From a virus, in IMG/VR virus record IMGVR_UViG_3300015264_000010, positions 1 to 48,401 of that record: a DNA stretch of 48,401 bases, one strand, 5' to 3'. Under the pieces are notes generated by a model. That model saw nothing but the letters and a program-made list of their open reading frames with translations. It was not told where the DNA came from and made no database searches. This document shows, in pieces, positions 1-48,401 of this stretch; within the stretch, counting starts at the first letter, position 1, and the number at the start of each line of letters is the position of its first letter. Made by a program: the position numbers and the translations under genes.

Positions 1-77
1 GCTTTGGCTCGGTCCTTGTTGGTCGGTGGGCCGGTTGGTCCCACACCCTTATTCGGCGGCTGAGGTGGTGCGCCCCC
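1..77. repeat. 77-bp terminal direct repeat, copy 1
   Basis: Bases 1-77 are identical to 48325-48401. The repeat lies inside the portal coding frame, where a natural terminal repeat is unlikely. Seventy-seven is a common assembler k-mer length, so this is best read as the overlap left when a circular graph is written out linearly. Confidence 0.95.
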
Positions 78-1532
78 GCCCTGGGGTGGCGGGTTGTCGC
101 TTGTCAGCGCCGTTCCGTTCGCGAGCGCCTGACTTGCCGCCATGGATAGTTGTTCCTTTGGCGACAGTGGCGCGTTCTGTAGTTCTTCGATCTGCTCTTC
201 GGTCCATCCGGCGCAGTACTTGAGCGTCAAGCTGAGCGGTACACCGGCGTCAACGAACATCTTGACTGTCTGTGCGACGTCGAACTCACTACGTACGTGC
301 GCATCGCGCCATTGGGACTCGACGTCCACGCCTAGCGCAAGCTCAAACATGTCATGCCAGGACTCGCCGTATACGTCTTGCAGATCGCCTACGTACTCGG
401 TGAACGGCCCCTCATCGGCTTCATACGCCGCGCCGGACGGTGCGACCTTGTCCGCCTTGACTTTGAGGTGGCCCGGTAGCGTGGCCTTGGTAAACAACTT
501 GTCAATAAGCTTGTCTTGCTCATCGCTGTAGTTGCTCAGATCAGTCTCGCTACCCTCCCAAATGGACGTAGGGGCCGCGCCCCCATCTCCGCCCCCGGGA
601 TCAAGCACGGCGACACGGTTGGGCCGCATCTTGATCGTCTCGTCATCGATGGTCTGCTCAGTCAGAATGGCCATCTTGCGCCACGCGTTGAACTCGGCCG
701 TGACAAGGAGGTTGGCCGCAAGCTTGTTGATCTTGTCTTGGATGGTGCGGATGCGGTCGATGATCGGCCGACGTTCCGAGGTGAACGCGAACCGAACAAC
801 GGGCACCTTGTCGAACCCGTGCTCGCCTCCGGGCTCATCGGGGTCTACTTCGAACCAACGGCTTTGCGGCATGATGGCGTTGGCCAAGTCCTTGACCTTG
901 GGGCCGACAAGCCGAACAACCACGTACTTGTAGTAGCACGTGGCGCGCCAGATGCCCTCTTCGTAGTCCGCCCACACGAGTACCACCCGCTCAGGGTCGG
1001 CACGGTGGCAATACTTCGGCCACCACACGTTGCGTGCGTCCTTGCGCGTGATGTCAACGCCGGTCTTCTTGGTGTCGTCCTTCCACACGAACAAGAACGC
1101 CTCGCCAGCCACCCCCGCGTCCGTGTATACGTCCTTCTGTCCGAGACGTAGATCGTTGTCTTTCCACACGTTGAGCGCGGCATCGCTCATGAGCACGTTC
1201 TGTGTGTCCTTTGTGCCCCGGTCCACGAACCCGTCACACATAAGTCGCTTGATGGGCGCGTCAACAGCCACATCACACCAGTTCTCGGACATGTTCGTGA
1301 TCAGGTGTTGGTCCAACCGCTCACGGATGTTGTCCGTCATCCACACGCGTGGATGGTCATTGTTGTAGTACCGCCAGCACGTGTCGATGCGCAAGCCCTT
1401 GGGCTTGAGGTCATCAAGCGCCCGCTTAAGGTGCTTGGGCCAGTCGTAGTCATCGGGGTTGAACGCTCCGCTAAGCGGCTCGTTCTCTGGCGCAACCCCA
1501 TCAGGATCCGCCGGATTGGTTGGTTGCGTCAT
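1..1532 (-). CDS. Portal protein, SPP1 gp6-like (5' part; C-terminus lies at the other window end)
   Basis: The portal forms the dodecameric ring at the capsid vertex through which TerL packages DNA. The ATG at 1532 lies 4 nt past the terminase stop and follows a GAGG site. The frame is open to base 1 and continues without a break across the 77-bp overlap to a TGA at 48300-48302, giving 518 residues, normal for this family. The N-terminal region (for example WRYYNND and WMTDNIRERLDQ) and the gene order terminase-portal-MuF fit SPP1 gp6-type portals. The last ~35 residues are Pro/Gly/Lys-rich and probably disordered. Confidence 0.88.
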   Translation of the reverse strand, partial: MTQPTNPADPDGVAPENEPLSGAFNPDDYDWPKHLKRALDDLKPKGLRIDTCWRYYNNDHPRVWMTDNIRERLDQHLITNMSENWCDVAVDAPIKRLMCDGFVDRGTKDTQNVLMSDAALNVWKDNDLRLGQKDVYTDAGVAGEAFLFVWKDDTKKTGVDITRKDARNVWWPKYCHRADPERVVLVWADYEEGIWRATCYYKYVVVRLVGPKVKDLANAIMPQSRWFEVDPDEPGGEHGFDKVPVVRFAFTSERRPIIDRIRTIQDKINKLAANLLVTAEFNAWRKMAILTEQTIDDETIKMRPNRVAVLDPGGGDGGAAPTSIWEGSETDLSNYSDEQDKLIDKLFTKATLPGHLKVKADKVAPSGAAYEADEGPFTEYVGDLQDVYGESWHDMFELALGVDVESQWRDAHVRSEFDVAQTVKMFVDAGVPLSLTLKYCAGWTEEQIEELQNAPLSPKEQLSMAASQALANGTALTSDNPPPQGGGAPPQPPNKGVGPTGPPTNKDRAK

Positions 1533-1536
1533 GCGT

Positions 1537-3003
1537 TTAGCCTCTCACAGTCCGCGAGGTTGCAACAGTACGGCCACGCTTGAGCATGAGTTCAGTGAAG
1601 CCCCAAACCACGGCATCCATTTCGTCAGGGCTCTCGTCACTACCAATCTCGTTACCCTCGTCATCCTTGGTGCCTTTGGGCACCCAAGACGTCCACTGGT
1701 CCTCTAAGGCCGCGTACATCGTCGGCTTACCAACGTGATGGATGCGGCCTTGCTCATACAGCATGGCTACCGGCTCGGCACGTGCACGCTTACCCACGGA
1801 CGCATGGACAGTCTTGAGCTTGATATCGGGGCGTATCTGCCTAAGCACGGTGCCGACGTAATCCCCGCCGTTATTGACCTCAGCTACAACGTAGTTAGCC
1901 ATGTGCACGTCATACAGCAACGCAACCTTTTCCATGGCCTGTGCTGGCGAACCCTTAAAGGACTCGCTATGCAGCACAAACCCTTCACGCCGGGATGCAT
2001 CCGACGCGGTAACCGATATGCCTGTGAAGTCGCTCTTTGCTGACGAGGTTACCGCAGGGTCGACATTGACAGTGACCGTAGACACGTCATCCGGCAAGTC
2101 AGCGTCCCACCGAAAGCCATCGGCATCAAACACGTCATGGCTAAGCATCGCGCCGACCACGTCAGACAGCAGCTCACCATTCAACTCTTGCCGACCGGTG
2201 CGCGTACCCTCGTACTGCCGGATCACCGTGTCATGAAAGACAGGCGCGAGGTTGACAAGATTGTCGTATGTGGTGCCGCGAATGATATAGAAGTTGCCGA
2301 ACTTGCCGTTGACCAGCTTCTTGACGTCCTTGCTCGGGCGAGGCGTACCCGTAAGGATCATGCGCGGCTCTTCACCAAGCCGCATACCCATCAAAGCGTT
2401 GGACATGACAGCCGCAAGGTAACGCCATGTACTGAACTCATCACCCCATACGAAATCGTGTTGTGGGCCACGCAGTAAGTCAGGGTCCTCTGAGGAATAC
2501 GCAAACGCAACAGCTCCGTTATGAAAGACGATACGTCGCTTGCTAGGTTGATACTCAGGACGTTCCCACTTGGGGAATACATTGAGCAGGCCACTTTCAC
2601 CCTCAATCATGACGTCACGTACGTCGGCAGCGGTCCGCGCAATGAGCGCGATACGACCAGCACCCCCGCGCGTCTTAGTGGTCATGGTGCGTACACCCTC
2701 AGCACCGATGCGCGTCTTACCAAACCCGCGACCTGCCATCCACAAGGCACCGGTCTTGCCATCTCCGCGTTTAAACGGCAACCGCTGGTTTGCCCGAGCA
2801 TGCCGCACCGGGCACTCAGGGTGTGGGTTGCCCACGCACATGGGGATGCGGCACAGCCACGCCGTCCGACGTACCTCACGCTCCACCCGGAGGCGCGCGG
2901 CTAGCTGTCGCTTACGATCGGGATCAAGCGCCGTGATGCGTTCGCGCAGTTCCGACACCGGTGTTGGCTCGGGTTTGGGCTTGTTACTCACGCCTCTAGT
3001 CAT
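1537..3003 (-). CDS. terL: Terminase large subunit (packaging ATPase/nuclease)
   Basis: TerL is the motor that translocates DNA into the prohead and cuts concatemers. The 488-residue protein shows Walker A GRGFGKT (about residues 91-97), Walker B FVWGDE (about 184-189) and a nuclease-domain Asp in VNVDPA (about 315). A Cys/His cluster at residues 51-68 (CRIPMC, HPEC) is an N-terminal extra that could bind zinc. The ATG at 3003 is chosen because AAGGGG lies 9 nt upstream; it overlaps the TerS stop by 8 bp. A longer frame starts at 3042. A GTTTAAAC site at 2769-2776 encodes its PFKR stretch. Confidence 0.93.
   Translation of the reverse strand: MTRGVSNKPKPEPTPVSELRERITALDPDRKRQLAARLRVEREVRRTAWLCRIPMCVGNPHPECPVRHARANQRLPFKRGDGKTGALWMAGRGFGKTRIGAEGVRTMTTKTRGGAGRIALIARTAADVRDVMIEGESGLLNVFPKWERPEYQPSKRRIVFHNGAVAFAYSSEDPDLLRGPQHDFVWGDEFSTWRYLAAVMSNALMGMRLGEEPRMILTGTPRPSKDVKKLVNGKFGNFYIIRGTTYDNLVNLAPVFHDTVIRQYEGTRTGRQELNGELLSDVVGAMLSHDVFDADGFRWDADLPDDVSTVTVNVDPAVTSSAKSDFTGISVTASDASRREGFVLHSESFKGSPAQAMEKVALLYDVHMANYVVAEVNNGGDYVGTVLRQIRPDIKLKTVHASVGKRARAEPVAMLYEQGRIHHVGKPTMYAALEDQWTSWVPKGTKDDEGNEIGSDESPDEMDAVVWGFTELMLKRGRTVATSRTVRG
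2769..2776. repeat. GTTTAAAC palindrome, copy in terL
   Basis: First of 16 copies of YGTTTAAACR in the window. This one is intragenic. All copies start at 2769, 9651, 10836, 11306, 11952, 15691, 20382, 21400, 22579, 24729, 24792, 27098, 32221, 38711, 41224 and 46089. Confidence 0.9.
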
Positions 3004-8096: not shown

Positions 8097-10346
8097 TCAC
8101 ACCAACCGCTTTGCGTCGAACTCAAACGTGATGTGTAGCGCGTTCGTGCTGAACGCGCGCTCGAAGATATCCTTGCCCATCGCCTGAACGTCCTTGACGA
8201 TCGACTCCGCGACGATGCTCGGGATCTCAAGCCAAAGCGAGTCATGCACCTGGTTGATCAAGATACCGGGGTACGTACGGTCCACCTCAAGCATGAGGAC
8301 CGACATCATCTCTGACACGCCACCCTGCACACACGCGTTGAACGCCTTGTACGTCTTCTCACCCCAGCCGAACACCCGACGTCGGCCCGACACCAGCCGC
8401 ACGTAACCCGGTCCGCCGATGTTCGTGTCCACCTTGCGCTCACACGCTTTGGCGGTCCGCTTGAGTTCCGGATACGCGGCGTTCAGCTCATCCTGAAAGC
8501 GCCGGATGTCGCGCTCGGGGATATCCGCCTTAAGGTCCGCGTCGATCTGCTGCTTGAGCGTCCGTACGCCCGACGCGTAGATCGTGCCGAAAATGCCGCG
8601 CTTCATGCTCGTGCGAATCTGCGTCCACCGTGGATCGGTTTCGTCGATGCCAAAGATGTTCTTCGTGTTGGCATCGTGCACGTTGACGCCCGAGTTGATG
8701 ACCGCAGCTAGCGCGTGGCACTGCGATAGCCACGCAGCGACACGAACCTCTGCATTACTAGCGTCGATCTCCCATACCTCGTGCCCTGCACGTGCACGGA
8801 AAAGTTTCTTGATGCCGACAACGTCCGGCGGAATGCGCCACGCTTGCGGGACACCTTGAAGTTGTACGCGGTCCGCGCTAAGCCGACCCGAGATGGCACC
8901 CCCGCTGTATCCGTCTGCACGATCACTCTCAACCGAGCATTGCCAATAGTTCGTTCGTAGACGACCATCCCGCCCCGCCCTGTTCGGCCACGCGTCGTAC
9001 CACTTGCTACAAACGCTCTGCATGTTAGAGATGTGCGCCCAAAGCTTGGCCACCTCCCCCGCCGTACCTTGCTCGTGCGTAAGTCGCGCAACCACCTCAG
9101 CATCACAGCTTGGCGCACCCCCGTCCGTGAGCTTGATGGGCATGATGCCGAGACCGCCACTCTCCGGCGACCCAAAGAAGTACTTGCCTGCCGCAATGCT
9201 GTTGGCCGTGAACGGAAGCTGACCGACAAGCGTCGCCACCTCCGCATGCATCTTCACGGCCTGTTCTGCGCACAGGTCCGCGTCGAACCCCACGCCCCGT
9301 TGCTCCATGCGGAAGAGCGTCAAGCACTTCTCGTGCTCGCGCTCAATGATGGGAAAGTCCTTGAAGTCGATCTCGCCCATGTCGCGCATGCTGTCTTCCC
9401 GCATGACCGCCCGACACGTAAGGTCCGCGTCCTTGGCCGCGTACTTGCCCGCGATATCCCACGCCACGAGGTCATACCGCTTGCCGAGCCCCACGCCGTT
9501 AGCCTTGAGTCCTTCCTCGATGCCGTTGTCCTTGCGCTCGCCGAAGAACTTGTGCGCCACGTTGTCGAGGCTGGCCTTCTGCACAGGGTCCACGATGGAC
9601 TCCCAGAGCATGACGTCCCGCCCGAGCTGGCCGCTCAGGTCAACCCCTGCGTTTAAACACCCCTTGGCGTGCTGCCACCCCACGCACCTGGGGTCGCACG
9701 CCGCGTGGGCACCGTTGCGCAACCCCGCGAGCATGATCCACATGTCGTATTTCGCGTTAAAAAAGTCCACGCGCGAGACAAGGAACTCACACAGGTCTCG
9801 CCACCCCTGCACGCCGAAGTTCCACGGCGCACACACGCACGTCTGCGGGGGGATGTGCCGATCTTCCATCGGCCGATGTACGAACACGCACTCGGCCGTG
9901 TGCGGAATGATCTGCCACCCCAACACCGGTGTGCGTTTGGTGACCCGCTTGATGTAACGGCCCTGCTTACCGCCGATCATGCCCTGATCGAACGGGATGG
10001 CCACAGACCGCCGCTCAAGTCGCTCGTACGACCCGTCACCCATGCACCCGTCCTCGTGGTCCCCGCCCACAGGAACGCCCACCGTTGCCCCGTAGCAGGG
10101 CGGACAGATGTCCTTGGCCCACTCGTGCCATGCGAGGCTCACGATGCTCACACGGGCCTCTGGCGAGCACTTGGCGGCATCGCTGGCCCACATGCCGTCA
10201 ACGTGCAGCCCGGACGCCTCCGTATCTAGGCTGACCGCCCCGCCCACGGGCTTGACGTTGTCCGCCAGCCACGCCCCCAGCTCGCAGGCAGACCATGCCC
10301 GCATGGTGACGGTGCCGTCCGGGTTGCCGATAGCAATCTCAGGCAT
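8097..10346 (-). CDS. polA: DNA polymerase I-like family A replicative polymerase
   Basis: The ~749-residue protein has a DEDD 3'-5' exonuclease domain (SLDTEASGL near residue 44, FNAKYDMW, YAAKDADLT) and a family A polymerase domain. Polymerase motifs are A (EIDASNAEVRVAAW), B (MKRGIFGTIYASG) and C (NQVHDSLWLEI near residue 700). There is no 5'-nuclease domain, as usual for phage enzymes. The exonuclease half carries Cys/His-rich insertions (ICPPCYG with a later DGCMG; ECVFVH and QTCVC; CDPRC with KGC) that could bind metal. The ATG at 10346 overlaps the upstream stop by 8 bp; 10358 is the alternative. A GTTTAAAC site at 9651 encodes CLNAG. Confidence 0.93.
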   Translation of the reverse strand: MPEIAIGNPDGTVTMRAWSACELGAWLADNVKPVGGAVSLDTEASGLHVDGMWASDAAKCSPEARVSIVSLAWHEWAKDICPPCYGATVGVPVGGDHEDGCMGDGSYERLERRSVAIPFDQGMIGGKQGRYIKRVTKRTPVLGWQIIPHTAECVFVHRPMEDRHIPPQTCVCAPWNFGVQGWRDLCEFLVSRVDFFNAKYDMWIMLAGLRNGAHAACDPRCVGWQHAKGCLNAGVDLSGQLGRDVMLWESIVDPVQKASLDNVAHKFFGERKDNGIEEGLKANGVGLGKRYDLVAWDIAGKYAAKDADLTCRAVMREDSMRDMGEIDFKDFPIIEREHEKCLTLFRMEQRGVGFDADLCAEQAVKMHAEVATLVGQLPFTANSIAAGKYFFGSPESGGLGIMPIKLTDGGAPSCDAEVVARLTHEQGTAGEVAKLWAHISNMQSVCSKWYDAWPNRAGRDGRLRTNYWQCSVESDRADGYSGGAISGRLSADRVQLQGVPQAWRIPPDVVGIKKLFRARAGHEVWEIDASNAEVRVAAWLSQCHALAAVINSGVNVHDANTKNIFGIDETDPRWTQIRTSMKRGIFGTIYASGVRTLKQQIDADLKADIPERDIRRFQDELNAAYPELKRTAKACERKVDTNIGGPGYVRLVSGRRRVFGWGEKTYKAFNACVQGGVSEMMSVLMLEVDRTYPGILINQVHDSLWLEIPSIVAESIVKDVQAMGKDIFERAFSTNALHITFEFDAKRLV

Positions 10347-10835: not shown

Positions 10836-10843
10836 GTTTAAAC
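10836..10843. promoter_or_regulatory. GTTTAAAC between ribosome site and start of the first leftward gene
   Basis: On the minus strand the order is AGGG-T-GTTTAAAC-A-GTG. Confidence 0.8.
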
Positions 10844-11305: not shown

Positions 11306-11313
11306 GTTTAAAC
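11306..11313. promoter_or_regulatory. GTTTAAAC between ribosome site and start of the first rightward gene
   Basis: The order is GGGA-C-GTTTAAAC-ACT-ATG, mirroring the opposing first gene. Confidence 0.8.
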
Positions 11314-11601: not shown

Positions 11602-14187
11602 ATGCCAAAGCTTGTCCGGCCGCTAGCGGTCACGTCACCCATGGTCGAGCACGCGCTGTGGTGGGCAAAGTTCTATCACCGGGTGTTCCCCCTGTGCTCT
11701 CCGGCCATGGGGCCGCACACGCACCTGAGGCAAGTAAAAGGTGAGTGGAAAGACATCCCGTGCGACCCTAAGGACGTCGGCAAGCTGCCGCTATCCGGGT
11801 TCAAGTGGGGGGACAAGGCCACCAAGGACGCGGACGTCATCCGGGGGTGGTTCGACAAGTACCCAAACGCCAACCTGGGAGGCACGCCGGACGACGGTTA
11901 TGTGTGGGTCGACGTGGACACTGAGCACCCGGAGGTCACATTCCCCGTAACGTTTAAACAGTCAACTAGTACCGCGTACAAGCACCACTTGCTGTACCGG
12001 CAGCCTAACGACCCCACCCGGCAACTTGAACAGACCCAACCCGGTAACGCCTACTGGCCCGGTGTGGATACTCGCGCGGCAGGGAAAGGCTACGTGGTGC
12101 TGTCGCCGTCCGTGCACAGCAACGGCACCCGGTACAAGGTGGCCAACCCGGTTGAGCCCAAAGAGTTTCCGGCCGACATGGTGCCGACACGCGTGCGCAC
12201 CAAGACGCGTCTTGCGGGAAAGGTCGATGGTGAGAAGACCGTTGATCGTGAGGTTGTGGACCTGCTTACCCGGGTGGCTGACGAACCGGATTCGCCGGAC
12301 CTAGGGAACATCGCGTTTGCAAAGATTGCGTCACGGCTGGCCAAAATGCTTCCTGGCGACCTGCCGATGTTCCGGGCGTGGCTACGGGCTACGAGCGGCG
12401 CGCTGACCGATCCCTTGTCAGACACCGATCTTGCCAAGCTTGAGGGTATCTGGCGCAAGACGGAAGATAAGCGGCTTGCCGATATCGCAGTTATCGTGGC
12501 CGATAGTGAGCGCGGTTGGTTATACGAGATGGGGGAAACCGGGTACTCCACAGCGGTCGGGTCCGGAGATAAGCTCGAATACGTGGCATGGTCTAACTTC
12601 CGCGTGACAGCTAAGTCGTTGGTCGACTACGGAGATCACCAAGTGTGGGTCGTAGACTTTCACAAGGCGGACGGGACCACCCTTGAGAACGTGGACTTGC
12701 CAAGCTCGGTGCTGTCATCGACCACCCGACTACGTGCGTTCTTGGTGGACCGGGGGATGTCACTTCTTGCTCCGACGTCGGACAAGCGAGGCAACCACGG
12801 TGAACGGCTGTTATGCCTCCTGCAAAGTCAGACGCACGAGCGCCAAACCGTCATTGAAAAGTACGGATGGGACGCGGCGCTGTCTGCTTTTGTCACGCCG
12901 GACAGCCTTATCCGGACGGACTCTGTTACTCCGGCCAATAACTATCTCAAGATCAAGGACGCTCAACTCAACTACGGGTTTAAGGACGGTGCGGTTGATG
13001 TACTGCGCGAGTTCCTGACGTTCCAAGACGAACACACCATGTCGCTATTCGGGGCGTTCCTCATGGTTACGCTGCTCAAAGGTCACTACTCGTGGCAGTC
13101 TCCGAACCTCGCGATTGAAGCGCACTCCGGAAGTGGCAAGAGCACGTACGTTCGGATGCTTGGGCAACTATGCGGCATCCGACGGAAGCCGGGAAAAGTA
13201 ACATACGCGGTAGCGCGTGACACGTACCAACTATCAACCAACGTGTTCAACTGGTTTGACGACGTTGAGATGGACCCCCAATGTCAAGAGCTATTTCGGC
13301 AAGCTGCCACAGGGGGGTCGTATTCGATAAAGGACCGAGACACGGGGTTTAAGGAGCGTAAAGACATCGACTTGCACGCGTCAACGGTATACAGCGCGGA
13401 GCGCATCACATTCACAGACCAAAAGGCCATGGCTGACAGGTTCGTCACGGTGTCTATGCCTAGCGCGGACACGCGGAAGTCCGCCACAGACCCGACACGC
13501 AGCCAGTGGCATGACGTCGATGCGTTCTTCAAGCGAACGCACCAAGAAGATCTAACACAGTACGCAGGTGCGCTCGTGCAGCTAGCCCTACGACACGCGG
13601 ATGTGTTCAACGACGTTGAGACCCTGACGACATCAACAAGCCGACGTGGCCAGATGGTGGCCATCATGCGTTGTGGCGCACGGGTGCTATCGGCCATCCT
13701 CGGGGACCCTGCACACACACAACGTGTTGACGAGTGGGCCGCAACGTTCGACTTCGCAGTATCGCCGTCAATCGTAGTGAACAAGGTGATCCCTCGGGTA
13801 TGGAACGCTGCACGTCAGCCGCTAACACGTCTGTACGGCACACACGGGCTGTACCCGGTGTTTTACAACGCACAGACCCGTCAATTTTGGGTATGGCCCC
13901 AGCAAACCGCCGAAGCGTGGCTAAGCGGTCCCGCGCGCAGCGACATCCGAGAAGCTAGTTTGACGGACTGTCGGGCGATCGAACTTGAGCTTGCCGCGTT
14001 GGGCGTCAAGCTAGGTAGCCCGCCCAAGACTTCGGACGGCGACGGTAAGCGTTGGACGACGCAAGTTCGGGGCAAGGGTGCGATCACGGGGACGTACTAC
14101 CCGATACCTGTTGCGTACACAGAGATGATCTACCGCGCGGCTACCGGGCACAACACGGACGACAGTCACGGGGAGACGGACGACTAG
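11602..14187 (+). CDS. Bifunctional primase-polymerase / helicase
   Basis: This 861-residue protein has an N-terminal prim-pol (AEP) domain, with the metal-binding acidic motif VWVDVDTE near residue 104 and the later GVDTRAAGKGYVVLSPS and HSNGTRYKV strands. A C-terminal helicase ATPase has Walker A SGSGKST near residue 508 and Walker B WFDDVE near 551. Such fusions prime and unwind DNA at phage forks and would work with the family A polymerase of the other arm. The ATG has GGGG 6 nt upstream. A GTTTAAAC copy at 11952 encodes TFKQ. Confidence 0.88.
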   Translation: MPKLVRPLAVTSPMVEHALWWAKFYHRVFPLCSPAMGPHTHLRQVKGEWKDIPCDPKDVGKLPLSGFKWGDKATKDADVIRGWFDKYPNANLGGTPDDGYVWVDVDTEHPEVTFPVTFKQSTSTAYKHHLLYRQPNDPTRQLEQTQPGNAYWPGVDTRAAGKGYVVLSPSVHSNGTRYKVANPVEPKEFPADMVPTRVRTKTRLAGKVDGEKTVDREVVDLLTRVADEPDSPDLGNIAFAKIASRLAKMLPGDLPMFRAWLRATSGALTDPLSDTDLAKLEGIWRKTEDKRLADIAVIVADSERGWLYEMGETGYSTAVGSGDKLEYVAWSNFRVTAKSLVDYGDHQVWVVDFHKADGTTLENVDLPSSVLSSTTRLRAFLVDRGMSLLAPTSDKRGNHGERLLCLLQSQTHERQTVIEKYGWDAALSAFVTPDSLIRTDSVTPANNYLKIKDAQLNYGFKDGAVDVLREFLTFQDEHTMSLFGAFLMVTLLKGHYSWQSPNLAIEAHSGSGKSTYVRMLGQLCGIRRKPGKVTYAVARDTYQLSTNVFNWFDDVEMDPQCQELFRQAATGGSYSIKDRDTGFKERKDIDLHASTVYSAERITFTDQKAMADRFVTVSMPSADTRKSATDPTRSQWHDVDAFFKRTHQEDLTQYAGALVQLALRHADVFNDVETLTTSTSRRGQMVAIMRCGARVLSAILGDPAHTQRVDEWAATFDFAVSPSIVVNKVIPRVWNAARQPLTRLYGTHGLYPVFYNAQTRQFWVWPQQTAEAWLSGPARSDIREASLTDCRAIELELAALGVKLGSPPKTSDGDGKRWTTQVRGKGAITGTYYPIPVAYTEMIYRAATGHNTDDSHGETDD

Positions 14188-15637: not shown

Positions 15638-16600
15638 ATGGATGAGCTCACGGTTAGCTGGAGTGAGTTAGATACGTATCGCCAGTGCCCGTTTAAACAC
15701 CACCTCGCGTACGACCAGCGATACAGCAAGGCTGTCGACGCCGGGAGCGCGCTGGACAAGGGCCTGTTGTGGCATGGCGCGATCGAGACGCGGTACAAGA
15801 CCATCCAAGCCCATCAGGTCATGCACGAGGGCCGCATGGTGTGGGATGTTGCGTCCGAGGTCTTGGCTGCCGAGTGCCACAAAGCCGTGAACGCGTACTT
15901 GTCCAAGGCACTGCGTGACGGCGCGGACGTCGCGGTTGTCTCGCTCGTCGCGTGGATGATGGAAGGCTACGTGGACACGTACGGGCTTGACGATGGGCAC
16001 GACATCATGGGCGTAGAGACCACCCATCTTGCGCCTCTGGGGACCATCTCCGGTCCGCACGAGGGTGAGCGGACTAAGGTGTGGCTCAAGTTCAAGATTG
16101 ACCGCACCGTCCGAGACCAGTACGGCCACATCCGGGTTATCGATGAGAAGTCGTGCTCCGCGCTCCCTACCGATAGCGACTACGACTTTGCCGATCAGTT
16201 CGGCTTGTACGTGTGGGGTCTCAAGGCGCTAGGGCTTAACGTTAGGGGGGCGGTTCACAGCGCCGCTAAGACCAAGCAGAATCAAGGCGACGTCATCCCG
16301 GTCGGCCACCCCGAGTACAAGAAGAGCATGAAGGCTCAGTCCTTAGAGGACCGGTACCGGCGCACGTCGATCCACTTCACCGCGCCGCAGCTCAAGGAAA
16401 TCGCAGACGACGCGCTCGCGGACGTTCAGCAGATGTATACCAAGGCCAACCACGGACGTCGGCACACGAACAACGATACGTGCCGTTGGCGCTGCAACTT
16501 CCGCGAGGCATGCTTGTACGGCCGACGTACGGGGCGTAACAGTGATACGGTCCGGATGTTGGAACTGACCGGCTTCACACAAGAGCGCGAGAGGCACTAA
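15638..16600 (+). CDS. Cas4/RecB-like PD-(D/E)XK exonuclease with Fe-S cysteines
   Basis: The 320-residue protein has YRQCP near residue 17, a PD-(D/E)XK core (Asp in KFKIDRTV near 155, EKS in VIDEKS near 170) and C-terminal Cys residues in CRWRCNFREAC (about 282, 286, 292). This is the four-cysteine arrangement of Cas4-type 4Fe-4S nucleases. It likely resects DNA ends for recombination with the Sak4-like ATPase and SSB-like protein downstream. ATG 15638 has GGGGGG 10 nt upstream and is preferred to GTG 15611. Confidence 0.82.
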   Translation: MDELTVSWSELDTYRQCPFKHHLAYDQRYSKAVDAGSALDKGLLWHGAIETRYKTIQAHQVMHEGRMVWDVASEVLAAECHKAVNAYLSKALRDGADVAVVSLVAWMMEGYVDTYGLDDGHDIMGVETTHLAPLGTISGPHEGERTKVWLKFKIDRTVRDQYGHIRVIDEKSCSALPTDSDYDFADQFGLYVWGLKALGLNVRGAVHSAAKTKQNQGDVIPVGHPEYKKSMKAQSLEDRYRRTSIHFTAPQLKEIADDALADVQQMYTKANHGRRHTNNDTCRWRCNFREACLYGRRTGRNSDTVRMLELTGFTQERERH

Positions 16601-20371: not shown

Positions 20372-20399
20372 TTGACAACGTGTTTAAACGCGGTAACGT
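20372..20399 (+). promoter_or_regulatory. Promoter containing a GTTTAAAC site
   Basis: TTGACA (20372-20377), 16-bp spacer, TAACGT (20394-20399). GTTTAAAC (20382-20389) fills the spacer, an ideal place for a repressor or activator. Drives the DUF6011 gene. Confidence 0.6.
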
Positions 20400-20441: not shown

Positions 20442-21356
20442 ATGGAAGCCGACAAGAACATGATTCCGGCAGGGTTCACCGAGACAACATGGCTTGCGGA
20501 GATGCAGCGCATGTCACGTGAGGTGGGCTTGACTGCCCCCAAGACGCTTGACGACGCGCGCAAGCCCACAAGCACCACGAGCGAGATCCCCACGGACACC
20601 GTGGTCCGGACACGGTTCGCCACCCCGGGTACCGCGTGCGGACGAGGCACGGTGCGGCGTATCAGTGAGGCGCAGCTTCGGTACATGCGCTTCCTGCTCA
20701 ACACCCGGAACTACCGCAAGCTGATCGGCGCGAAATGGTGGCCGAGCACGGCCGTGGACCACGCGACCACGCTTGCCGCCGTGGAGTTCATCAGTCTCAA
20801 GGGCGCGAGCACCATGATTGAAGGTCTGCTCGGGTGCCCGGAGCGCGCATCGGTGGCCGCTGAGACGGTGGCTGAGCCCATGGCCACCCCCAAGCAGCTC
20901 ACATACCTCGCAAGCCTGCTTGCAGAGCGTGTGCACGGATTCGGCACGCCGGACATCACGAGCCTTACCATGCTTGAGGCCAAGGCCATGATAAGTGACT
21001 TGATCGAACGGCCTCGGGTGCCTGTGGCTGCGCCGACACGCACAGAAGCGCTTGCCGTCGCCGGTATCTACGAACTTGACGGCGCGTACTATCGCATGAA
21101 GAAAGCGCGTAACGGAAACCACTTCTACGCGGAGCTTCTGACGGACACCGAATCCGGTGCGTGGGAGTACGCACGGGGCATGGCCCACAAGGTGCCTGCA
21201 CAGGGTCGCAAGCTGAGCCTTGAGGAGTGCGAGGCGTTCAGCGCGCTACTCGGCTCGTGCTGCATGTGCTCGCGTGAGCTGACTGCCACCGTGAACGGTG
21301 TCGGCCCCGGTGCCCGGTTCCTCGGCCCGGTTTGTCGGTCCAAGATGGGTTTTTAG
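20442..21356 (+). CDS. DUF6011 zinc-ribbon protein
   Basis: The C-terminus (CCMCSRELT, then GPGARFLGPVCRSKMGF) matches the DUF6011 zinc-binding pattern common in actinophages. Upstream, two similar segments (SEAQLRYMRFLLNTRNY near residue 85 and TPKQLTYLASLLAERVH near 150) form an internal repeat of helical modules, possibly DNA-binding. 304 residues. It has its own promoter with a GTTTAAAC site and is followed by a hairpin. Confidence 0.68.
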   Translation: MEADKNMIPAGFTETTWLAEMQRMSREVGLTAPKTLDDARKPTSTTSEIPTDTVVRTRFATPGTACGRGTVRRISEAQLRYMRFLLNTRNYRKLIGAKWWPSTAVDHATTLAAVEFISLKGASTMIEGLLGCPERASVAAETVAEPMATPKQLTYLASLLAERVHGFGTPDITSLTMLEAKAMISDLIERPRVPVAAPTRTEALAVAGIYELDGAYYRMKKARNGNHFYAELLTDTESGAWEYARGMAHKVPAQGRKLSLEECEAFSALLGSCCMCSRELTATVNGVGPGARFLGPVCRSKMGF

Positions 21357-24791: not shown

Positions 24792-24799
24792 GTTTAAAC
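24792..24799. repeat. GTTTAAAC on the right side of the convergent terminator, holding the holin stop
   Basis: The TAA stop of the holin-like gene is read from inside this palindrome on the minus strand. Confidence 0.85.
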
Positions 24800-26722: not shown

Positions 26723-27707
26723 CTGGTTTCGCCACCGTTACGAACGTCTGAATAGCGATGGTATGTGCCACAGGTACCCGCCCCGACCCGTGGCACAGCG
26801 GGCACTCCACCGTCTCGGGTGCCGGTACGGGTGTGGGATCCTCGTCAGGTGCGTTGAGCAGCGCGAACCCGGTATTGATGGCGTTCTGCGCGCTCGTATC
26901 GAGTAACAGGCTCGGATCGTGCTCGGTGCCGTCCGTGGCCCACACCAGGTAGAAGGTTGGCCGTGCGGCTTCCGGGAGCGTCTTGAGCCACGCGAACTCG
27001 TCCGTGATGGCCTTTGCGCGCGCCTCGTGCTCGACGGTCGGCCAGCCACGCTCCGCAACCGCCCACGCCACATCGTCCGGTCGCGAGTCAAGCCACCGTT
27101 TAAACACCGGGCTCACCTCAAGCGTGTCCGTGACGGGGAATGACCGCCCACTGTAGATGTCGATGGCGTGGACGTCCGCGCGAGTCACCCATGCGTCCGG
27201 GTTGGCGACCCATGCGCTCTTGTCATGCGGGCCGCCGACCTTGGGCCGGTAACCGTAACCGAGTGCTGCGTGACATGTCACGATGTTCGGGTCCACGCCC
27301 TTGACCCACGCGTGCAGTGTGTTGAAGTACCGAACGAAGTCCTCGGCTGTGCCGAAGCTCATGACCTTGTGCGTCCCGTTCGGATAGCTGTCGCGCGTGT
27401 CGTCCTCCGGCTCATGCCAGAACACGACGGTCACCTTGTCGGCCAACTCGTTGACGTTGATGTGCCGCGCGAGTTGTTCAATGTAGAGCTGCCACGCGCC
27501 GTTGGTCACGTCGTCCGGACGGGGCTTGAACGACACAACCACGTGCATGTCATCGTCCAGCGCCGGACGACACAGGTTCTCAAAGCTGGGGATGAGGTTC
27601 TGCGGGGGAATAACCCCGCCTTTGAATTCGCGTGTAGCGTCTGTCAGCGGGTACGTCGCACGGATTTCGGTGGGAGTGCCGGGGCCGTGAACACCGAGCA
27701 AAATCAT
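26715..27707 (-). CDS. Glycoside-hydrolase-fold protein (tail-associated, putative)
   Basis: The 330-residue protein reads like a TIM-barrel glycosidase: VVVSFKPRP, then TVVFWHEPEDD (acid/base Glu near 99), an IDIYSG strand and WAVAERGW (nucleophile Glu near 219). The C-terminus has CPLCHGSGR, a DnaJ-like zinc half-site. It likely acts on surface glycans or envelope polymers. ATG 27707 has AGGA 8 nt upstream. A GTTTAAAC at 27098 encodes VFKR. Confidence 0.68.
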   Translation of the reverse strand: MILLGVHGPGTPTEIRATYPLTDATREFKGGVIPPQNLIPSFENLCRPALDDDMHVVVSFKPRPDDVTNGAWQLYIEQLARHINVNELADKVTVVFWHEPEDDTRDSYPNGTHKVMSFGTAEDFVRYFNTLHAWVKGVDPNIVTCHAALGYGYRPKVGGPHDKSAWVANPDAWVTRADVHAIDIYSGRSFPVTDTLEVSPVFKRWLDSRPDDVAWAVAERGWPTVEHEARAKAITDEFAWLKTLPEAARPTFYLVWATDGTEHDPSLLLDTSAQNAINTGFALLNAPDEDPTPVPAPETVECPLCHGSGRVPVAHTIAIQTFVTVAKPGA

Positions 27708-32220: not shown

Positions 32221-32228
32221 GTTTAAAC
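32221..32228. promoter_or_regulatory. GTTTAAAC at the tape measure stop / distal tail start
   Basis: Minus-strand order is GGAG-C-GTTTAAAC-G-ATG. The site also contains the TAA stop of the tape measure gene. Confidence 0.8.
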
Positions 32229-38200: not shown

Positions 38201-39038
38201 GTGCAAGACTTGGATCGATGTCTATGCCGACCTTAGCGTTACCGAGGTCTGCAAGTTCCTTCTTGAGCGCGGCGAGCTTGAGTTCACTGTCTGTTGTGTC
38301 CGCGTTGATCTTGACGTCGGGGAGGTTACTTAACGCCCCCTCGATCGTCGCCTTGAACTTCTCACTGAACTTTCCGGCTGCGTCCGACGCAGACGCGGTA
38401 TCAACGTTGACCTTGACGTTGACGTCTTTGATCTTGTTGACCTCTTCGGTAAGGTGCTCAAGACTGGCTTGCGCTGCGCCCGCGTCAACCTTGATGGCGA
38501 TGTTGGCGCTCTCAGAGCCGAGTTTATTAAGCTCAGCACTGATCTCCTGGACTTTGGCAAGCGCTGCCGACGAATCGATGTCGACACCGACGCTCTTGCC
38601 GGACAGCTCCTCAAGCTTGGTCCGGAGCGCGGCTATCTGTTGCTGTGCCGCTGACGTGTCGGCATTGATATTCGGCGATGGGAGGTTTCGGAGCGCGCTG
38701 TCAACTGCGCGTTTAAACGACTCCGAGAACTTGCCCCCGGTGTCCGCGCCTTGTCGAGTGCTCGTGCTGTCGTCCGGGCCGACCTTGGTGTCCTTGGTAC
38801 TGTCCTGAGTAGACTTCTTGAAGCCCTCACCGAACGTCTTGCCGCTTTCAACGCCAGCCTTGGCCGTTGTCTGCGTTACCCCCCGCATTGCGGCGTCGAC
38901 GCTTATCGTTTTGTTCATGCCCTCGGTGAGGGCCTTACCTGCCGCTTCGCCAGCCTTGGCCGCGTCTTTGGCAACCTCCGCGTTTGCCCCGGGTGGCAAT
39001 GCAAGCGTTAGTTGAATGAATGCTTCGCCTAGTTGCAT
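32223..39038 (-). CDS. Tape measure protein with C-terminal M15-like peptidase domain
   Basis: At 2271 residues this is the largest gene; at ~0.15 nm per residue it implies a tail near 340 nm. The N-terminal ~450 residues contain a duplicated ~125-residue module (INADTS... and INADTT...). A very long Ala/Gln/Lys coiled-coil region follows, then hydrophobic segments (LIVAAIALFVGGLVLLY) and Trp-rich repeats. Near the C-terminus a zinc peptidase signature (WHYKGRAVDMTP, HYNHVHWA) could open the cell wall at DNA entry. ATG 39038 has AAGGGG 5 nt upstream; GTG 39044 is too close. A GTTTAAAC lies at 38711. Confidence 0.93.
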   Translation of the reverse strand: MQLGEAFIQLTLALPPGANAEVAKDAAKAGEAAGKALTEGMNKTISVDAAMRGVTQTTAKAGVESGKTFGEGFKKSTQDSTKDTKVGPDDSTSTRQGADTGGKFSESFKRAVDSALRNLPSPNINADTSAAQQQIAALRTKLEELSGKSVGVDIDSSAALAKVQEISAELNKLGSESANIAIKVDAGAAQASLEHLTEEVNKIKDVNVKVNVDTASASDAAGKFSEKFKATIEGALSNLPDVKINADTTDSELKLAALKKELADLGNAKVGIDIDPSLAQAQITRIKADLDELSKKDANVQIRVDAGAAAAELAAFKRETDKLDGKNVKVKVDADTGSAISKLEGVNSAAGNAGQGIGVIPLALAGIAPAAAPAAAAVVAACGAMAGAVAGAAAGIGVLKLAFLGVGDASKALAASDAAAAQTAQAQQAANAAVATSLKGVQNAEKDLQRAREDGARAVADAMKQVLTAEQNVGDVEKQAAHDATQAAKDVVSAKQNVLDVTKQASREERDAQQAVTDATANYKQAQLDAAQAVKDAIQGVTDAQDNYRQAQHDTAEAAQAAAKAVTAAQEGLKQVFVDNAQREKDAVEAVAGAQADLKRAQEDVVQSTKDAAQKIIEAQNNVKDAQEKAADDQVASARKVADAQQAIVDAHKAAEQQAKDSARAIADAQQGVADAEKNAADTEVQAAQRVKDAQRGVVDARRQAAQSAEQAAQRVESAEQALAAAQRSSKDAQNALTQARKDYATQMRDLSLSVRQNALSQQQALTSIQLAEENLAKVRADKKATQAEKDNAAEAVQQQKLDYEDLVNRGKDLAAQRNAQSKQVLSAQQQVTASVGKIADAEKNLKNARQGVSDTAIANNERIQKAQEALAGSQQAQTKAELDGAKNITGAQQKLADTRDKAAQAAEQSSRKISTADQNLTDAQNKAAEQREQDQKKIVDALQKVAAAQQAQVRLAEDNARKIQAAEDKLAKSRESQSRTIAEDAKKVRDAQDNIASAQQRQADVTYANQRKLKAAQDNIAKAEQRQAQVRAQNARKLSDAERAVIRAQEQQVTVQENGTKRVKDAQDKVTQAIQHQSDVATSNSRKIQAAEDGVAKARENASRAAETAGRSVADAQDKVKTAEDNLAKARKNASQVGIDAANKLKTALQGIGQAQIDFAKFWNKFSQTVKAQTSNAAGAGILPAIQAGLEKSVLGAAGNVKTGLIKFISDTGNTIGGLVTKAFAALDSPQIKGFGAFLTRTTQGSIKTFGDALINVGKGVAALIVAFEPFQGPVLKAIKDVSDQFLKWATNLKGSKDFQVFTDYVKQNAPLLEQLVKNLVTVIGHLGVGISGLGGPVLKTLVDLTGQIAKLSPDTVAKLAAAVYLLVAAFKGITVVSNAVSAISGVSSALGTLTKVFGGAAVATEAMTVAEGEATVATSALDVALGILTAPITLIVAAIALFVGGLVLLYNKNKWFHDFVNTAWANIKKAISAVTDWFVNTAWPAMKKVWDQLVELFKSPTVQTYLKALGTEFKVTWDLIVGAVKVAWAYLSGVFKIIGDLLSGNFKKAWTDFGTTVGNVWNGIKATVSKVWTDIQNSVFGKAIDYIKGAFAAAWNWLWKNLIGPVWSGIKTVISTTWGIVKGIFDTIVSVVKTVLGPVFNVLWKVFIKPAWEGIHLAIRIAWVAIQIIYKTIEIALILLGKAFTALWKDVIVPAWNGIKSFISKTWDGIKKIFDIVVGFLKKEFAQAWTWIKDHVVAMWNDLKRGIKIEWDWIHDHILQPIINWLKKTFGPAWTWLKDTVKALWADMKRGIKIEWDWIKDHILNPALNWVKKTFGPAWTWLKDHVKAVWADMKRGIKIEWDWIKDHIFEPIKTFITKTIPDAFTTGVNAVKAAWQKVTDIVKAPIKILVNTIIDDGIIAGFNSIATKVGVSPITPIPKLATGGVLPGYTPGSDVHMFTSPTGGALALSGGEAVMRPEWTRAVGPAFVDSMNAVARSGGVHGVKQALGLARGGIVPRQALAGGGIVGTLSGWWEDLSSMVDGPLKTIGNIAEGAKNLAKAPWLNDMVHKAVETLMTGVKNIVIGNHSGGGNSPGTSVLGKPGDLKISDGQGWAWQESVLRKAFPSIAFYSTTGGHHAKNSWHYKGRAVDMTPSMDIFNWIKKNYGSKTLELIYGPAGGQTVWHGQNHSYSPSLMAAHYNHVHWAYNQGGVLPTYDDGGWLQPGSVGVNRSGKPEAVLTPEESRGLKSMGVGELIDKLEELIDEVKKVAPGVGGYIRGSGRGIVAAGRSV
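33511..33900 (-). repeat. 135-bp tandem repeats inside the tape measure gene
   Basis: Copies begin at 33511, 33646 and 33781, exactly 135 bp apart. Each encodes a 45-residue unit with KIEWDWI, FGPAWTWLKD and WADMKRG. The DNA copies are diverged, so the repeat is old and kept at protein level. Confidence 0.85.
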
Positions 39039-41223: not shown

Positions 41224-41231
41224 GTTTAAAC
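41224..41231. promoter_or_regulatory. GTTTAAAC between ribosome site and start of the 78-aa neck-region gene
   Basis: Minus-strand order is AAGGA-AC-GTTTAAAC-G-ATG. The palindrome and its 3' flank (CATCGTTTAAACG on the plus strand) match the 32217 site exactly. Confidence 0.8.
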
Positions 41232-45320: not shown

Positions 45321-46277
45321 CTATGTCGGTGGTCTGCGTCCACGCATGAAGGTTCCGTGTTTGACCGCACGTTGCGCGTACTCACGAACTGACTTAGGCA
45401 GGTCAGTACCTCGATTAAGCAACCTATTAGCGGCAGCAACACGAGCGTTGTTCGATTCACTTGGCAATGACCAGCCGCGCAACACCGACCGCTCAGCCTC
45501 GCGCTTAAGCGATTCGGCAAGGGGTTCGGCAACATCCTTGTGCACGAGCCACTGACTACATCGGCAGTTGGGGTGTAACGGTGGTGACTCAACCGGGCCG
45601 CGCGATATCGGCTTATCCGCGAACGTCAAGCCCTCGGGATAACCTTCACCGGTGTCAATCTCGCCTTGGTACGCGAGGCAGTCAAGACACGCGTCACGCT
45701 CGGCATGCCACACTGACACCAGCTCATCAGTGGCTCGCGATACGGTCGTAAGCGCGTCGTTGCTCGCCTCGTTGGTCACGTATCGCGCGACCATCTCTGA
45801 CTTGTTGATACCTTGCTGTGCAACCGCTAGTGCGATGTGGACGTCCGTAAGCGTGTCAACATGCCCGAGCAGCACGCTGCTATTGGCTACGCTTTCGCGC
45901 ATGTCTTGTTCAAGCTTGTCAACACGCCCATGCAGGGCCGCGCTGAGGTGGTACCCGGACGGCGGCAACATGGCCCGTGCGCCAGCGGCAAGCGCCTCAT
46001 CCTGTGCGGCACGCAACCCGTGCGCCAGGGCTTCCCGAGCGCCCTGCTTGATGGTGGACCGGACCAAGGCCATGAGGGGTTGCAGTCTGTTTAAACGCAC
46101 ACTTGCGAGCGCTCGGGTCTTGGCGTCTTGGCTCGCGTCGTCGCCTGGCCATAGCGCCGTGATCTCCGCCAGGATGCGCGCGAACACCGGGCGGAGGATG
46201 CTGGCTACCTTGTCGGACGTGTCCAACTCGATAGCTAGTAGATCATCCTCCGCCTTGAGCAACGGCGTTACGTCCAT
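45321..46277 (-). CDS. MuF-like head morphogenesis protein
   Basis: The 318-residue protein is helical at the N-terminus and has the MuF core: VWHAERDACLDCLAYQG, then PPLHPNCRC. MuF proteins are minor capsid components near the portal. The ATG lies 2 bp past the upstream stop. A GTTTAAAC at 46089 encodes RLNR. Confidence 0.83.
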   Translation of the reverse strand: MDVTPLLKAEDDLLAIELDTSDKVASILRPVFARILAEITALWPGDDASQDAKTRALASVRLNRLQPLMALVRSTIKQGAREALAHGLRAAQDEALAAGARAMLPPSGYHLSAALHGRVDKLEQDMRESVANSSVLLGHVDTLTDVHIALAVAQQGINKSEMVARYVTNEASNDALTTVSRATDELVSVWHAERDACLDCLAYQGEIDTGEGYPEGLTFADKPISRGPVESPPLHPNCRCSQWLVHKDVAEPLAESLKREAERSVLRGWSLPSESNNARVAAANRLLNRGTDLPKSVREYAQRAVKHGTFMRGRRPPT

Positions 46278-46279
46278 CG

Positions 46280-48280
46280 TTACGGGGTCATCTCCATGTA
46301 GGGCACACGGCGACTCAGCGCCAATGACCCGCTGGCAATGGTCGACGGCAAGTCGCTTTGGCTGCTCAACGCAGCTCCGACTTTAGGCTCAGCCGCAAAC
46401 ACACCGTCGATGATGGACGCACCAGACAGGTTGATGGCGTAGAACGTCGGCATGGTGGTTCCGACAACGAGCGGGCCAACCGCATACCGCTGACCCGCCT
46501 GCTTGGTCCACGCCGCAGACAACGCCGCTGTGTATTTGGTGTTCGCTGCGTTGAACAGCGTCGTGTCGCTGGCCGTTGACGCCACCAACGTCAAGTCACC
46601 GTTCGACGCAACCGAATACACGCCCATCTTGACCAGCGTCAACACCGCGCCGAGCGTGCCACTCGTATACATCGTCAGGTTGTTGATGACCTCGGTCTTC
46701 TTGGCCGTGAAGTACGTGAGCTGCAACAGTCCTGACGTCTGCGTGTTGCCACTGTTGGCTACAAACCGCCGGTCCGCGACAGCCTCACCAACAGCGAGCA
46801 CATCGGACGTATCAAGGACCGACGTGTCTTGCGCCGTAAGCGTCCGCATGACGTCTCCGAGCGTCATCACACGCAACCCCGCTTTACCAGCCACGTAGTC
46901 AACCAAGGTGGCATGATCGGCCGTCTTGAACTGCGTGGACAGCGTGGGCGTGGTGACCAGGTCGTGACAGCAGAAGACCGCCATGCCACCATGCAGCGCA
47001 ACGCTGTCCACGATGGCCTGTAGCGTGGCGATGTTGCTGTTGTTATCCAGCGTGTAGCAACGGATGGCGTACGGGTCGGCCGGAGGTACCGTCTCACACC
47101 CGTTGCTGTTAGCGGTCATGGCCCGCGCGTATGCCACCCGGCGCGCCATGAGGTCTCGCGTAGCAGTCAGGAATCGGCCCTGTGGGTAGCAGTGACCGAA
47201 GAACCCATCCGTGAGACTGTTGGCCGTAAGCCAGTCCTCCTCACGCGAGATGTCATCGTCCAGTTCGACGGCGCTAAGTGGATTGGTGCCGTACACCGTC
47301 CCGGTTGCACCGTTCGTTGCGCCGGAGAACGCCCGAGCGTGATTGGCTAGCGTGTTGCAGTGAAGCGCAATCTCCCACCGACTGTACGACCGGAGATCCT
47401 TGAGCATCTGCGTCGTCATCCACGCCGTATTGCCACCGTCCCCATCGGTGACGTTGCTCTTGATGGTGAACGCCGTTGCCGGAAAGCCCCACTTGTCGAG
47501 ATGGACCTTCGCGAGCGTGTATTGCGCCCGGTAGCTGTCGTCATACGTGAAGCACACGATGCCGCCGGACGCGAACGAACGCCGCTCCACCACCTGCACA
47601 GCCTGTAGGTGGACGGTTGCGCTCGTGCCGGTTGTGGTCGTTAGCCGAATGCGGAGGTGGTCAATCGCCGCGTAGTTAGGCTTGCCAGTCACGCCACCTG
47701 TCGCACTGGCGCTTGACGCCATGTTGACAGTGACCCACTTCCACTCACCATCCTTGAGCCAACGCACGGACGGGTCGGCTACCACGTTCTGAATGTTGCT
47801 GAACGAGTAGTTGGCTGCGAAGTTGTCCGATGTGGCGTAAAGGCTCATGCCTTGGATGTTGTCTCCGCCGGTAACCATGACGAGTAGCCGAATCGTCTTG
47901 GTAGCGCTCATGTCCAGCGCCAGCGTGCCACTCGTAATCGTGGCGGCTGTCGTGTCGGTCTTGCTCGTGATGTACGCGCTCTGTGCGCCGATCACAAAGG
48001 CCGTATTGTCGTTCATGGCGTTGGCGAGCGCGTTGGACGCTGTCCATCCGTGACCGCTCTGCATGCTCGTGATGTTCTGCAACACCTTGGGGCGCGGGTA
48101 CGGGAACTTCTGAGCCGCACGGACGTCCGTTGCCGGGATGCCACCTACCTGAATGGTTCCGTCCGGGATGCGTGCCGTTGGGGTCGTGTACCAACCGGGC
48201 CGACCGCCCCCGATAAGCGAGTCGTACCGGCGTTGGCTAACCGCGTACGGCCCTTCAAGGTAGTGATAGACGTTAGGCAT
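46280..48280 (-). CDS. Polysaccharide deacetylase-fold protein between portal and MuF
   Basis: The 666-residue protein has a central CE4 NodB-like domain (about 236-455): FTYDD (244-248) matches motif 1 and ALHCNTLANH (His307, His314) matches the metal-binding motif 2. The N-terminal ~230 residues look like a virion-attachment segment plus a beta-sandwich; the C-terminal ~165 residues form another beta-sandwich. It probably deacetylates surface glycan or murein. Finding it within the head genes rather than at the tail tip is odd. AGAGG lies 9 nt before the ATG. Confidence 0.75.
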   Translation of the reverse strand: MPNVYHYLEGPYAVSQRRYDSLIGGGRPGWYTTPTARIPDGTIQVGGIPATDVRAAQKFPYPRPKVLQNITSMQSGHGWTASNALANAMNDNTAFVIGAQSAYITSKTDTTAATITSGTLALDMSATKTIRLLVMVTGGDNIQGMSLYATSDNFAANYSFSNIQNVVADPSVRWLKDGEWKWVTVNMASSASATGGVTGKPNYAAIDHLRIRLTTTTGTSATVHLQAVQVVERRSFASGGIVCFTYDDSYRAQYTLAKVHLDKWGFPATAFTIKSNVTDGDGGNTAWMTTQMLKDLRSYSRWEIALHCNTLANHARAFSGATNGATGTVYGTNPLSAVELDDDISREEDWLTANSLTDGFFGHCYPQGRFLTATRDLMARRVAYARAMTANSNGCETVPPADPYAIRCYTLDNNSNIATLQAIVDSVALHGGMAVFCCHDLVTTPTLSTQFKTADHATLVDYVAGKAGLRVMTLGDVMRTLTAQDTSVLDTSDVLAVGEAVADRRFVANSGNTQTSGLLQLTYFTAKKTEVINNLTMYTSGTLGAVLTLVKMGVYSVASNGDLTLVASTASDTTLFNAANTKYTAALSAAWTKQAGQRYAVGPLVVGTTMPTFYAINLSGASIIDGVFAAEPKVGAALSSQSDLPSTIASGSLALSRRVPYMEMTP

Positions 48281-48299
48281 GCTTCTAACCTCTCACGTG

Positions 48300-48401
48300 T
48301 CAGCTAGTCGGCCGTGCGGTTGCCGCTTTGGCTCGGTCCTTGTTGGTCGGTGGGCCGGTTGGTCCCACACCCTTATTCGGCGGCTGAGGTGGTGCGCCCC
48401 C
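48300..48401 (-). CDS. Portal protein, C-terminal end (continuation across the contig joint)
   Basis: This is the end of the portal frame that enters from base 1. Bases 48325-48401 duplicate 1-77, so the unique part is 48300-48324. It encodes a tail ending ATARPTS before a TGA stop. It is an assembly break in a circular molecule, not a truncated gene. Confidence 0.85.
   Translation of the reverse strand, partial: GGAPPQPPNKGVGPTGPPTNKDRAKAATARPTS
48325..48401. repeat. 77-bp terminal direct repeat, copy 2
   Basis: Exact duplicate of 1-77. Removing one copy gives a 48,324-bp circle with an uninterrupted portal gene. Confidence 0.95.

Follow-up and report, generated by a model that had tools for sequence, protein, structure and literature searches.

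A dispersed 8-bp palindrome in a phage genome and its association with a SprT-like metalloprotease that may read it

The locus described here raises the question of why a single 8-bp palindrome, GTTTAAAC, recurs throughout a phage genome, and which protein reads it. The genome is an IMG/VR phage record of 48,401 bp with a G+C content (GC) of 60.7%, analysed over its whole length and referred to below as the window; it contains 16 exact copies of GTTTAAAC, where a first-order Markov model predicts 0.32. We propose, with a probability of roughly 0.6 and from sequence comparison, that the SprT-like protein encoded by the phage itself recognizes GTTTAAAC as its cognate site; it would read the site through its C-terminal tail and act as a regulator at promoters while also being spread along the genome. 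A functional linkage between the sites and the SprT-like protein is very probable, and direct binding of the sites by this protein is probable; transcriptional regulation may be its main output, a suggestion to which we give slightly less than even odds.

A preliminary description of the window, made from the sequence alone, had regarded the palindrome as a dedicated DNA-binding site, and had named two comparisons that could overturn this view, an 8-mer count against a Markov background and site conservation in relatives. Its 16 coordinates were all recovered on recount, as were the flanks, which conform to YGTTTAAACR in every copy, and its statement that well under one copy is expected agrees with the Markov figure. 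The hexamer TTTAAA, likewise described as confined to the palindrome, occurs 16 times within GTTTAAAC and nowhere else in the window. GTTTAAAC is by a wide margin the most over-represented 8-bp palindrome, the runner-up being CAAGCTTG (9 copies versus 0.60 expected), and other AT-core palindromes are not enriched to a comparable degree. The eight copies that had been placed at gene boundaries comprise seven that are intergenic and one, at 32221, that abuts two genes; this count used the window open reading frames (ORFs) conserved in the relative G002 as the gene set, the intergenic share of which, 20%, is an over-estimate.

Relatives of the window phage were sought with its TerL (1537-3042), which retrieved three loci at 82-83% amino acid identity (L001, L002 and L003) and a fourth at 45% (L004); in IMG/VR no relatives were found with PolA or a 666-aa protein as queries. 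The record of L002, G002, is 46,922 bp long, collinear with the window but circularly permuted, and contains 31 copies of GTTTAAAC, while L001 (8.2 kb) and L003 (5.4 kb) hold five and two copies, respectively, and the 36-kb record of L004 holds none. One of the L001 copies (4108) lies in the terminase gene, as does a copy in the window. Whole-genome alignment of the window with G002 gave about 62% identity over aligned positions; for 12 of the 16 window sites G002 has a site in exactly the same alignment columns, compared with 0.55 expected from 8-mers of equal local identity. G002 has 19 additional sites of its own, and thus sites are both conserved and gained. The Markov counts and this conservation rule out chance and codon use as the cause of the palindrome, the latter as the preliminary description had argued.

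To which gene product, then, do the sites belong? An exact IMG/VR scan for GGANCGTTTAAACGATG returned 69 contigs, and in several of the large ones, spanning GC values of 0.36-0.67, GTTTAAAC is the top palindrome. All-against-all blastp of the encoded ORFs identified one protein common to the window and six further GTTTAAAC-rich records (G002, G005, G007, G009, G015 and G019), which represent diverse lineages with GC contents of 0.36-0.61. In the window this is the product of 21459-22310, which displays 31-41% identity to its more distant homologues and is annotated in named phages as a SprT-like protease. All 11 motif-selected records that encode SprT hold 6-30 sites, whereas among SprT-negative records longer than 30 kb three (G013, G017 and G027) hold two sites each and one, G012, holds seven. 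Some of the shorter SprT-negative records with several sites are likely fragments of a G009-type phage.

The association is also apparent in the opposite direction. A protein-profile scan of IMG/VR (A1), which was blind to the DNA motif, yielded 80 SprT loci, all of which contain the tail by selection because the peptide pattern used was K[KV]Q[ST]TR[ML][LMV]K; most IMG/VR records are fragments, with no host assigned. Together these loci contain 495 copies of GTTTAAAC, compared with 10.7 expected, with other palindromes far behind, and 57 of the 80 are individually enriched. In the other 23 a related word, GTTTACAC/GTGTAAAC, is enriched in 19 (some on three copies) and neither word in four. 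As two of the loci, L144 and L145, are close relatives of the window, they were left out when the set was dereplicated at 60% SprT identity, which gave 19 clusters, comprising 12 of the GTTTAAAC type, four of the GTTTACAC type and three of neither; one locus per cluster still provides 125 copies of GTTTAAAC against 3.5 expected. By contrast, 80 control loci selected by terminase, and SprT-free by hidden Markov model (HMM), contain five copies of GTTTAAAC (5.4 expected) and four of the second word (10.1 expected), ruling out that GTTTAAAC is generally abundant in viruses.

The sister motif GTTTACAC differs from GTTTAAAC at one base and is the enriched word in actinophages with SprT. Indeed GTTTACAC/GTGTAAAC is the top 8-mer, or among the top ones, in named SprT-bearing actinophages, with 23 copies in UtzChips, 21 in Tuck, 17 in Emotion, 22 in Zeta1847, 13 in 4A (host not recorded) and 43 in Microdon, where 0.02-0.2 per genome are expected, or 0.07-0.34 under the first-order model. 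The combined pattern GTKTAMAC occurs 28 times in Cen1621, 42 in Henoccus and 17 in Liebe, and GTTTAAAC itself is carried by Mica, Mano, Alexa, ECO1230-10 and Persinger in 4-8 copies. In pooled counts the 8-mer is near-absolutely strict, single-base variants being barely enriched except for the interchange of GTTTAAAC and GTTTACAC. Separate from these words, the Arthrobacter phage Emotion (OQ709216; L121-L123) contains seven copies of TTTCAnnTGAAA (0.00 expected) inside TTTCACGTGAAAC-type palindromes, which we take to resemble bacterial parS (TGTTTCACGTGAAACA), and this suggests a partition-like or ParB-related function. Dispersed palindromes of other kinds, possibly operators of other regulators, were observed in Zeta1847 (L124-L126; TACACnnGTGTA, six copies) and in ECO1230-10 (L112-L114; ACAATnATTGT, six copies, and AACAAnnnTTGTT, seven).

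On sequence and modelling grounds the product of 21459-22310 is a SprT-like (Spartan/Wss1-fold) metalloprotease. The zinc site, consisting of HExxH and a third histidine (H159, E160, H163 and H172), is invariant across 51 sequences, and a close family member, L190, scores 29.1 bits against PF10263 (gathering score 25.6), compared with 12.9 bits for the window protein. An AlphaFold2 model built from an alignment of the 51 loci had a mean predicted local distance difference test score (pLDDT) of 85.8. The VIA matches of its core were to minigluzincins (Z 8.0-8.2), SPRTN (6mdw/6mdx, 7.8) and Wss1 (5xbn, 6.8), values that are middling by the tool's yardstick, although these top matches are in line with the HExxH signature and the PF10263 matches of the relatives; a Foldseek search with the model returned nothing at E under 0.001, and a PDB sequence search with A1 only spurious lectin matches. 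The N-terminal helical domain is present in the window protein and in G002 and missing from most relatives. In the tail, a basic stretch ahead of the ribbon includes K225, Q227, T229, R230 and K233, which are invariant in the same 51 sequences. The tail model (pLDDT 80.7) shows two strands, then a helix, then a closing strand; its likeness to a zinc ribbon is weak, the best match being to desulforedoxin (Z 2.5) and others to MCM and ribosomal zinc-ribbon-type segments.

It is the tail, rather than the protease domain, with which the sites keep company. Whole-protein tblastn, with no tail pattern imposed, revealed homologues in eight named phages that keep the HExxH core and have lost the KKQxTR..K..C..CGY..R..KW tail, and their genomes hold no sites (Psa21, Epa43, Eden, Celaena, Brahms and BAjuniper), one (FP1) or two (Franklin22). 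Sites were scored as present in 16/16 named phages with an intact tail, ranging from two on a 29-kb contig to 43, and in 0/8 of the tail-less ones (Fisher P 1.4e-6, uncorrected for relatedness, in a named-phage sample that is small and phylogenetically structured). As tail loss coincides with site loss while the protease stays, recognition is placed in the C-terminal tail and not in the protease domain.

The positions of the sites bear on what such recognition may achieve. The SprT ATG is preceded at a distance of 15-19 bp by a site in Mica, Mano, Alexa and ECO1230-10, and that site follows a -10-like box by 6-9 nt. UtzChips has 14 of its 23 sites in intergenic DNA, which makes up 7.6% of the genome; several of its sites, in either orientation, are situated between TTGCGC and TACACT/TAGACT-like hexamers, in the -35/-10 spacer. 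In other genomes the majority of sites are intragenic. Microdon has nine of 39 sites in intergenic DNA, eight no more than 60 bp ahead of a start (8.7% of positions are so placed), and intragenic sites divided 13 versus 17 between the orientations; the spacing of the Microdon sites is more even than random (coefficient of variation 0.54; none of 2,000 shuffles as even). In G007 the sites are clumped. Three of the 16 window sites (10836, 32221 and 41224) are start-associated by appearance. Promoter placement and even intragenic spread thus support both a promoter-operator and a genome-spanning role, and it is likely that the sites serve as dispersed operators or in genome tethering.

In the mechanism that we envisage, the KKQxTR/zinc-ribbon tail would read the 8-mer, and on the palindromic form it would probably do so as a dimer; related SprT-like proteins would read GTTTACAC. 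At promoters and start regions the bound protein could act as a regulator, in the manner of an operator or roadblock, and intragenic sites would distribute it over the genome. Its protease domain may serve as an internal switch for release, comparable to the S24 domain in CI/LexA, by acting on the protein itself or on its neighbours; SPRTN and Wss1 undergo autocleavage induced by DNA (PMC5128726).

Several observations weigh against this proposal. Many sites are intragenic, which is unlike pure promoter operators, and sites are under-dispersed in Microdon, Tuck, G006, G002 and G019. A site lies upstream of SprT itself in 29 of 91 cases (15.8 expected), and thus autoregulation of SprT is not general. 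G012, a 39.7-kb phage, has its seven copies of GTTTAAAC and yet no SprT-like protein by profile, while the clade L162/L164/L166 keeps an intact KKQSTR tail without sites of either kind. No alignment column cleanly tracks the switch between GTTTAAAC and GTTTACAC, as a specificity residue would. Finally, no integrase or repressor was recognized among the window ORFs scanned, which were not all of them, and a role in lysogeny cannot therefore be claimed for the window phage. Within the record of G012 (L085-L086) several of the sites occur as GCGTTTAAACGATG at start codons. A substitute motif considered for the L162/L164/L166 clade, TATATATA, was rejected, since its enrichment in L162 and L166 comes from a single tract of simple repeats at each locus.

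It could be argued that the even, largely intragenic distribution reflects a sequence-addressed protease, which from dispersed sites would remove host proteins such as defence translocases, silencers or crosslinked and stalled proteins, transcription not being its main output. The under-dispersed spacing in several genomes, the many intragenic sites, the invariant HExxH and the SPRTN-type fold are consistent with such a function, as is the related metalloprotease domain of the antirestriction protein ArdC; antirestriction by ArdC is, however, independent of its protease activity (PMC7213743). This explanation, which we regard as unlikely, also fits poorly with UtzChips and the Mica group, where sites occur at promoters and in start regions and, in the Mica group, number just 4-8. 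That the sites are bound by a different phage protein of poor conservation, which the SprT-like protein would process, as ImmA acts on ImmR, with the tail contacting the binder or its complex with DNA, appears quite improbable. Helix-turn-helix (HTH) or other DNA-binding genes do lie near SprT in several named phages, and small, fast-evolving proteins could escape blastp clustering, but no second protein family spans the GTTTAAAC-rich set, and it is loss of the basic ribbon tail, with the protease retained, that accompanies site loss.

The strict 8 bp, with no near-variants enriched, is reminiscent of enzyme recognition, and a host- or enzyme-driven mark, be it a restriction or methylation site or a packaging or recombination signal, might be envisaged. 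Enrichment, however, tracks the tail of one protein across phages of Acinetobacter, Burkholderia, Arthrobacter, Microbacterium, Streptomyces and unknown hosts, and no methyltransferase was found among the proteins scanned, a scan that was not exhaustive; such a mark is very improbable indeed. The dedicated DNA-binding site of the preliminary description is strongly supported by the computed evidence, which adds a candidate reader that the description had not named. With respect to the three roles it had offered, a dispersed operator fits best, given the promoter overlap in UtzChips and in Mica, Mano, Alexa and ECO1230-10, while a methylation mark and a packaging signal find no support, the protein scan having shown no methyltransferase, within its limits, and the sites following the protease tail across unrelated phages.

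Under our proposal that the SprT-like protein reads the sites, a phage protein that is widespread but has no annotation beyond SprT-like protease would gain a probable DNA target, and sequence-specific recognition of DNA is predicted for a protease family in which it is not known. Literature searches retrieved no report of the motif in phages and none of a SprT DNA site. The association across phages suggests a hitherto unrecognized pairing of a SprT-like protease with DNA address sites of its own. Phages of clusters AZ and EH are reported to be temperate or probably so, with no repressor identified, and homoimmunity has been demonstrated for Powerpuff lysogens (PMC8758107). Cluster AZ and EH phages carry the SprT-like protein, the AZ phage Powerpuff among them (match H98), and GTTTACAC sites occur in sequenced relatives; the SprT-like protein is therefore a specific candidate for the repressor that these temperate phages seem to lack. 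A bolder version, in which a protease addressed by tail-read, even 8-bp sites (GTTTAAAC/GTTTACAC) would coat the genome, silence promoters, cleave DNA-borne proteins and serve as the AZ/EH immunity repressor, is a speculation that we consider somewhat unlikely. The natural tail-less homologues offer a ready control.

Features of the window, with the fate of each GTTTAAAC site in the collinear relative G002
Feature	Coordinates	Strand	Remarks
GTTTAAAC site	2769..2776		within terminase gene; codes F-K of PFKR; conserved in G002
GTTTAAAC site	9651..9658		within PolA gene; conserved in G002
GTTTAAAC site	10836..10843		1 bp upstream of leftward ORF 10541-10834; conserved in G002
GTTTAAAC site	11306..11313		outside conserved genes, left of primase gene; not conserved in G002
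GTTTAAAC site	11952..11959		within primase gene; absent at aligned G002 position
GTTTAAAC site	15691..15698		within exonuclease gene; absent at aligned G002 position
GTTTAAAC site	20382..20389		52 bp upstream of gene 20442-21356; conserved in G002
Upstream neighbour gene	20442..21356	+	phrog_636, weak DUF6011
GTTTAAAC site	21400..21407		51 bp upstream of SprT-like gene; conserved in G002 (there 45 bp upstream)
SprT-like metalloprotease gene	21459..22310	+	283 aa, phrog_6361; putative reader of the palindrome
N-terminal helical domain, residues 1-43	21459..21587	+	alignment A4; two helices (2-17, 28-43) modelled with high pLDDT
SprT/minigluzincin protease core, residues 80-210	21696..22088	+	HExxH (159-163), third His 172; fold match
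C-terminal KKQxTR + zinc-ribbon tail, residues 225-283	22131..22307	+	proposed DNA-reading part
GTTTAAAC site	22579..22586		in small ORF 22335-22622; conserved in G002
GTTTAAAC site, intergenic pair (1)	24729..24736		pair spacing 63 bp in window, 64 bp in G002
GTTTAAAC site, intergenic pair (2)	24792..24799		conserved in G002
GTTTAAAC site	27098..27105		conserved in G002
GTTTAAAC site	32221..32228		between Shine-Dalgarno and ATG of 31845-32219(-); overlaps stop of 2273-aa ORF; conserved in G002
GTTTAAAC site	38711..38718		within 2273-aa ORF; not conserved in G002
GTTTAAAC site	41224..41231		AAGGA-CGTTTAAACG-ATG arrangement, minus strand (Shine-Dalgarno to ATG); conserved in G002
GTTTAAAC site	46089..46096		within gene 45321-46277; conserved in G002

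The product of the upstream neighbour gene is a possible partner of the SprT-like protein; in UtzChips and Tuck a gene annotated 'DNA binding protein' lies close upstream of SprT, a comparison with the neighbour gene that concerns position only. The window also displays strong avoidance of GGCGCC (one copy versus 33.6 expected) and GAGCTC (one versus 10.9), which probably reflects host restriction pressure, and the strings TCAAGC, TCAAGG and CTCAAG are 4-6 times over-represented.

How the sites and their putative reader relate to known systems can be considered from either side. The SPRTN/Wss1 DNA-protein crosslink proteases share with the phage proteins the HExxH..H zincin core, the fold (Z 7.8/6.8) and a zinc-binding tail; in the phage proteins, however, presence of the 8-mer tracks the tail, whereas the SPRTN/Wss1 family is not known to have a sequence-specific DNA site, and our literature searches found none. 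The stoperators of mycobacteriophage L5 are similar in that many near-identical short sites are distributed across a phage genome, both at and away from promoters, and are kept in relatives (here 16 and 31 copies, 12/16 aligned). Stoperators lack symmetry, have a defined orientation and are recognized by an HTH repressor, while the present sites are associated with a metalloprotease and show no fixed orientation relative to transcription, being palindromic in the window and, as GTTTACAC/GTGTAAAC in Microdon, found in both orientations. CI/LexA (S24) and ImmR-ImmA resemble the proposed logic, in which a DNA-binding regulator is coupled to a protease, but they belong to another protease class and use another DNA-binding fold, and switching in the SprT-like protein is what we infer. 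The start-associated sequences (SAS) of cluster K and EF phages are located at ribosome-binding sites (PMC7302621), and some window sites similarly lie between Shine-Dalgarno and ATG, although the majority of the present sites are not start-associated. Finally, ArdC of R388 combines a metalloprotease domain superposable on SprT with a DNA-binding domain (PMC7213743); ArdC, however, binds single-stranded DNA non-specifically, in contrast to the strict 8-bp address proposed here for the SprT-like proteins of phages.

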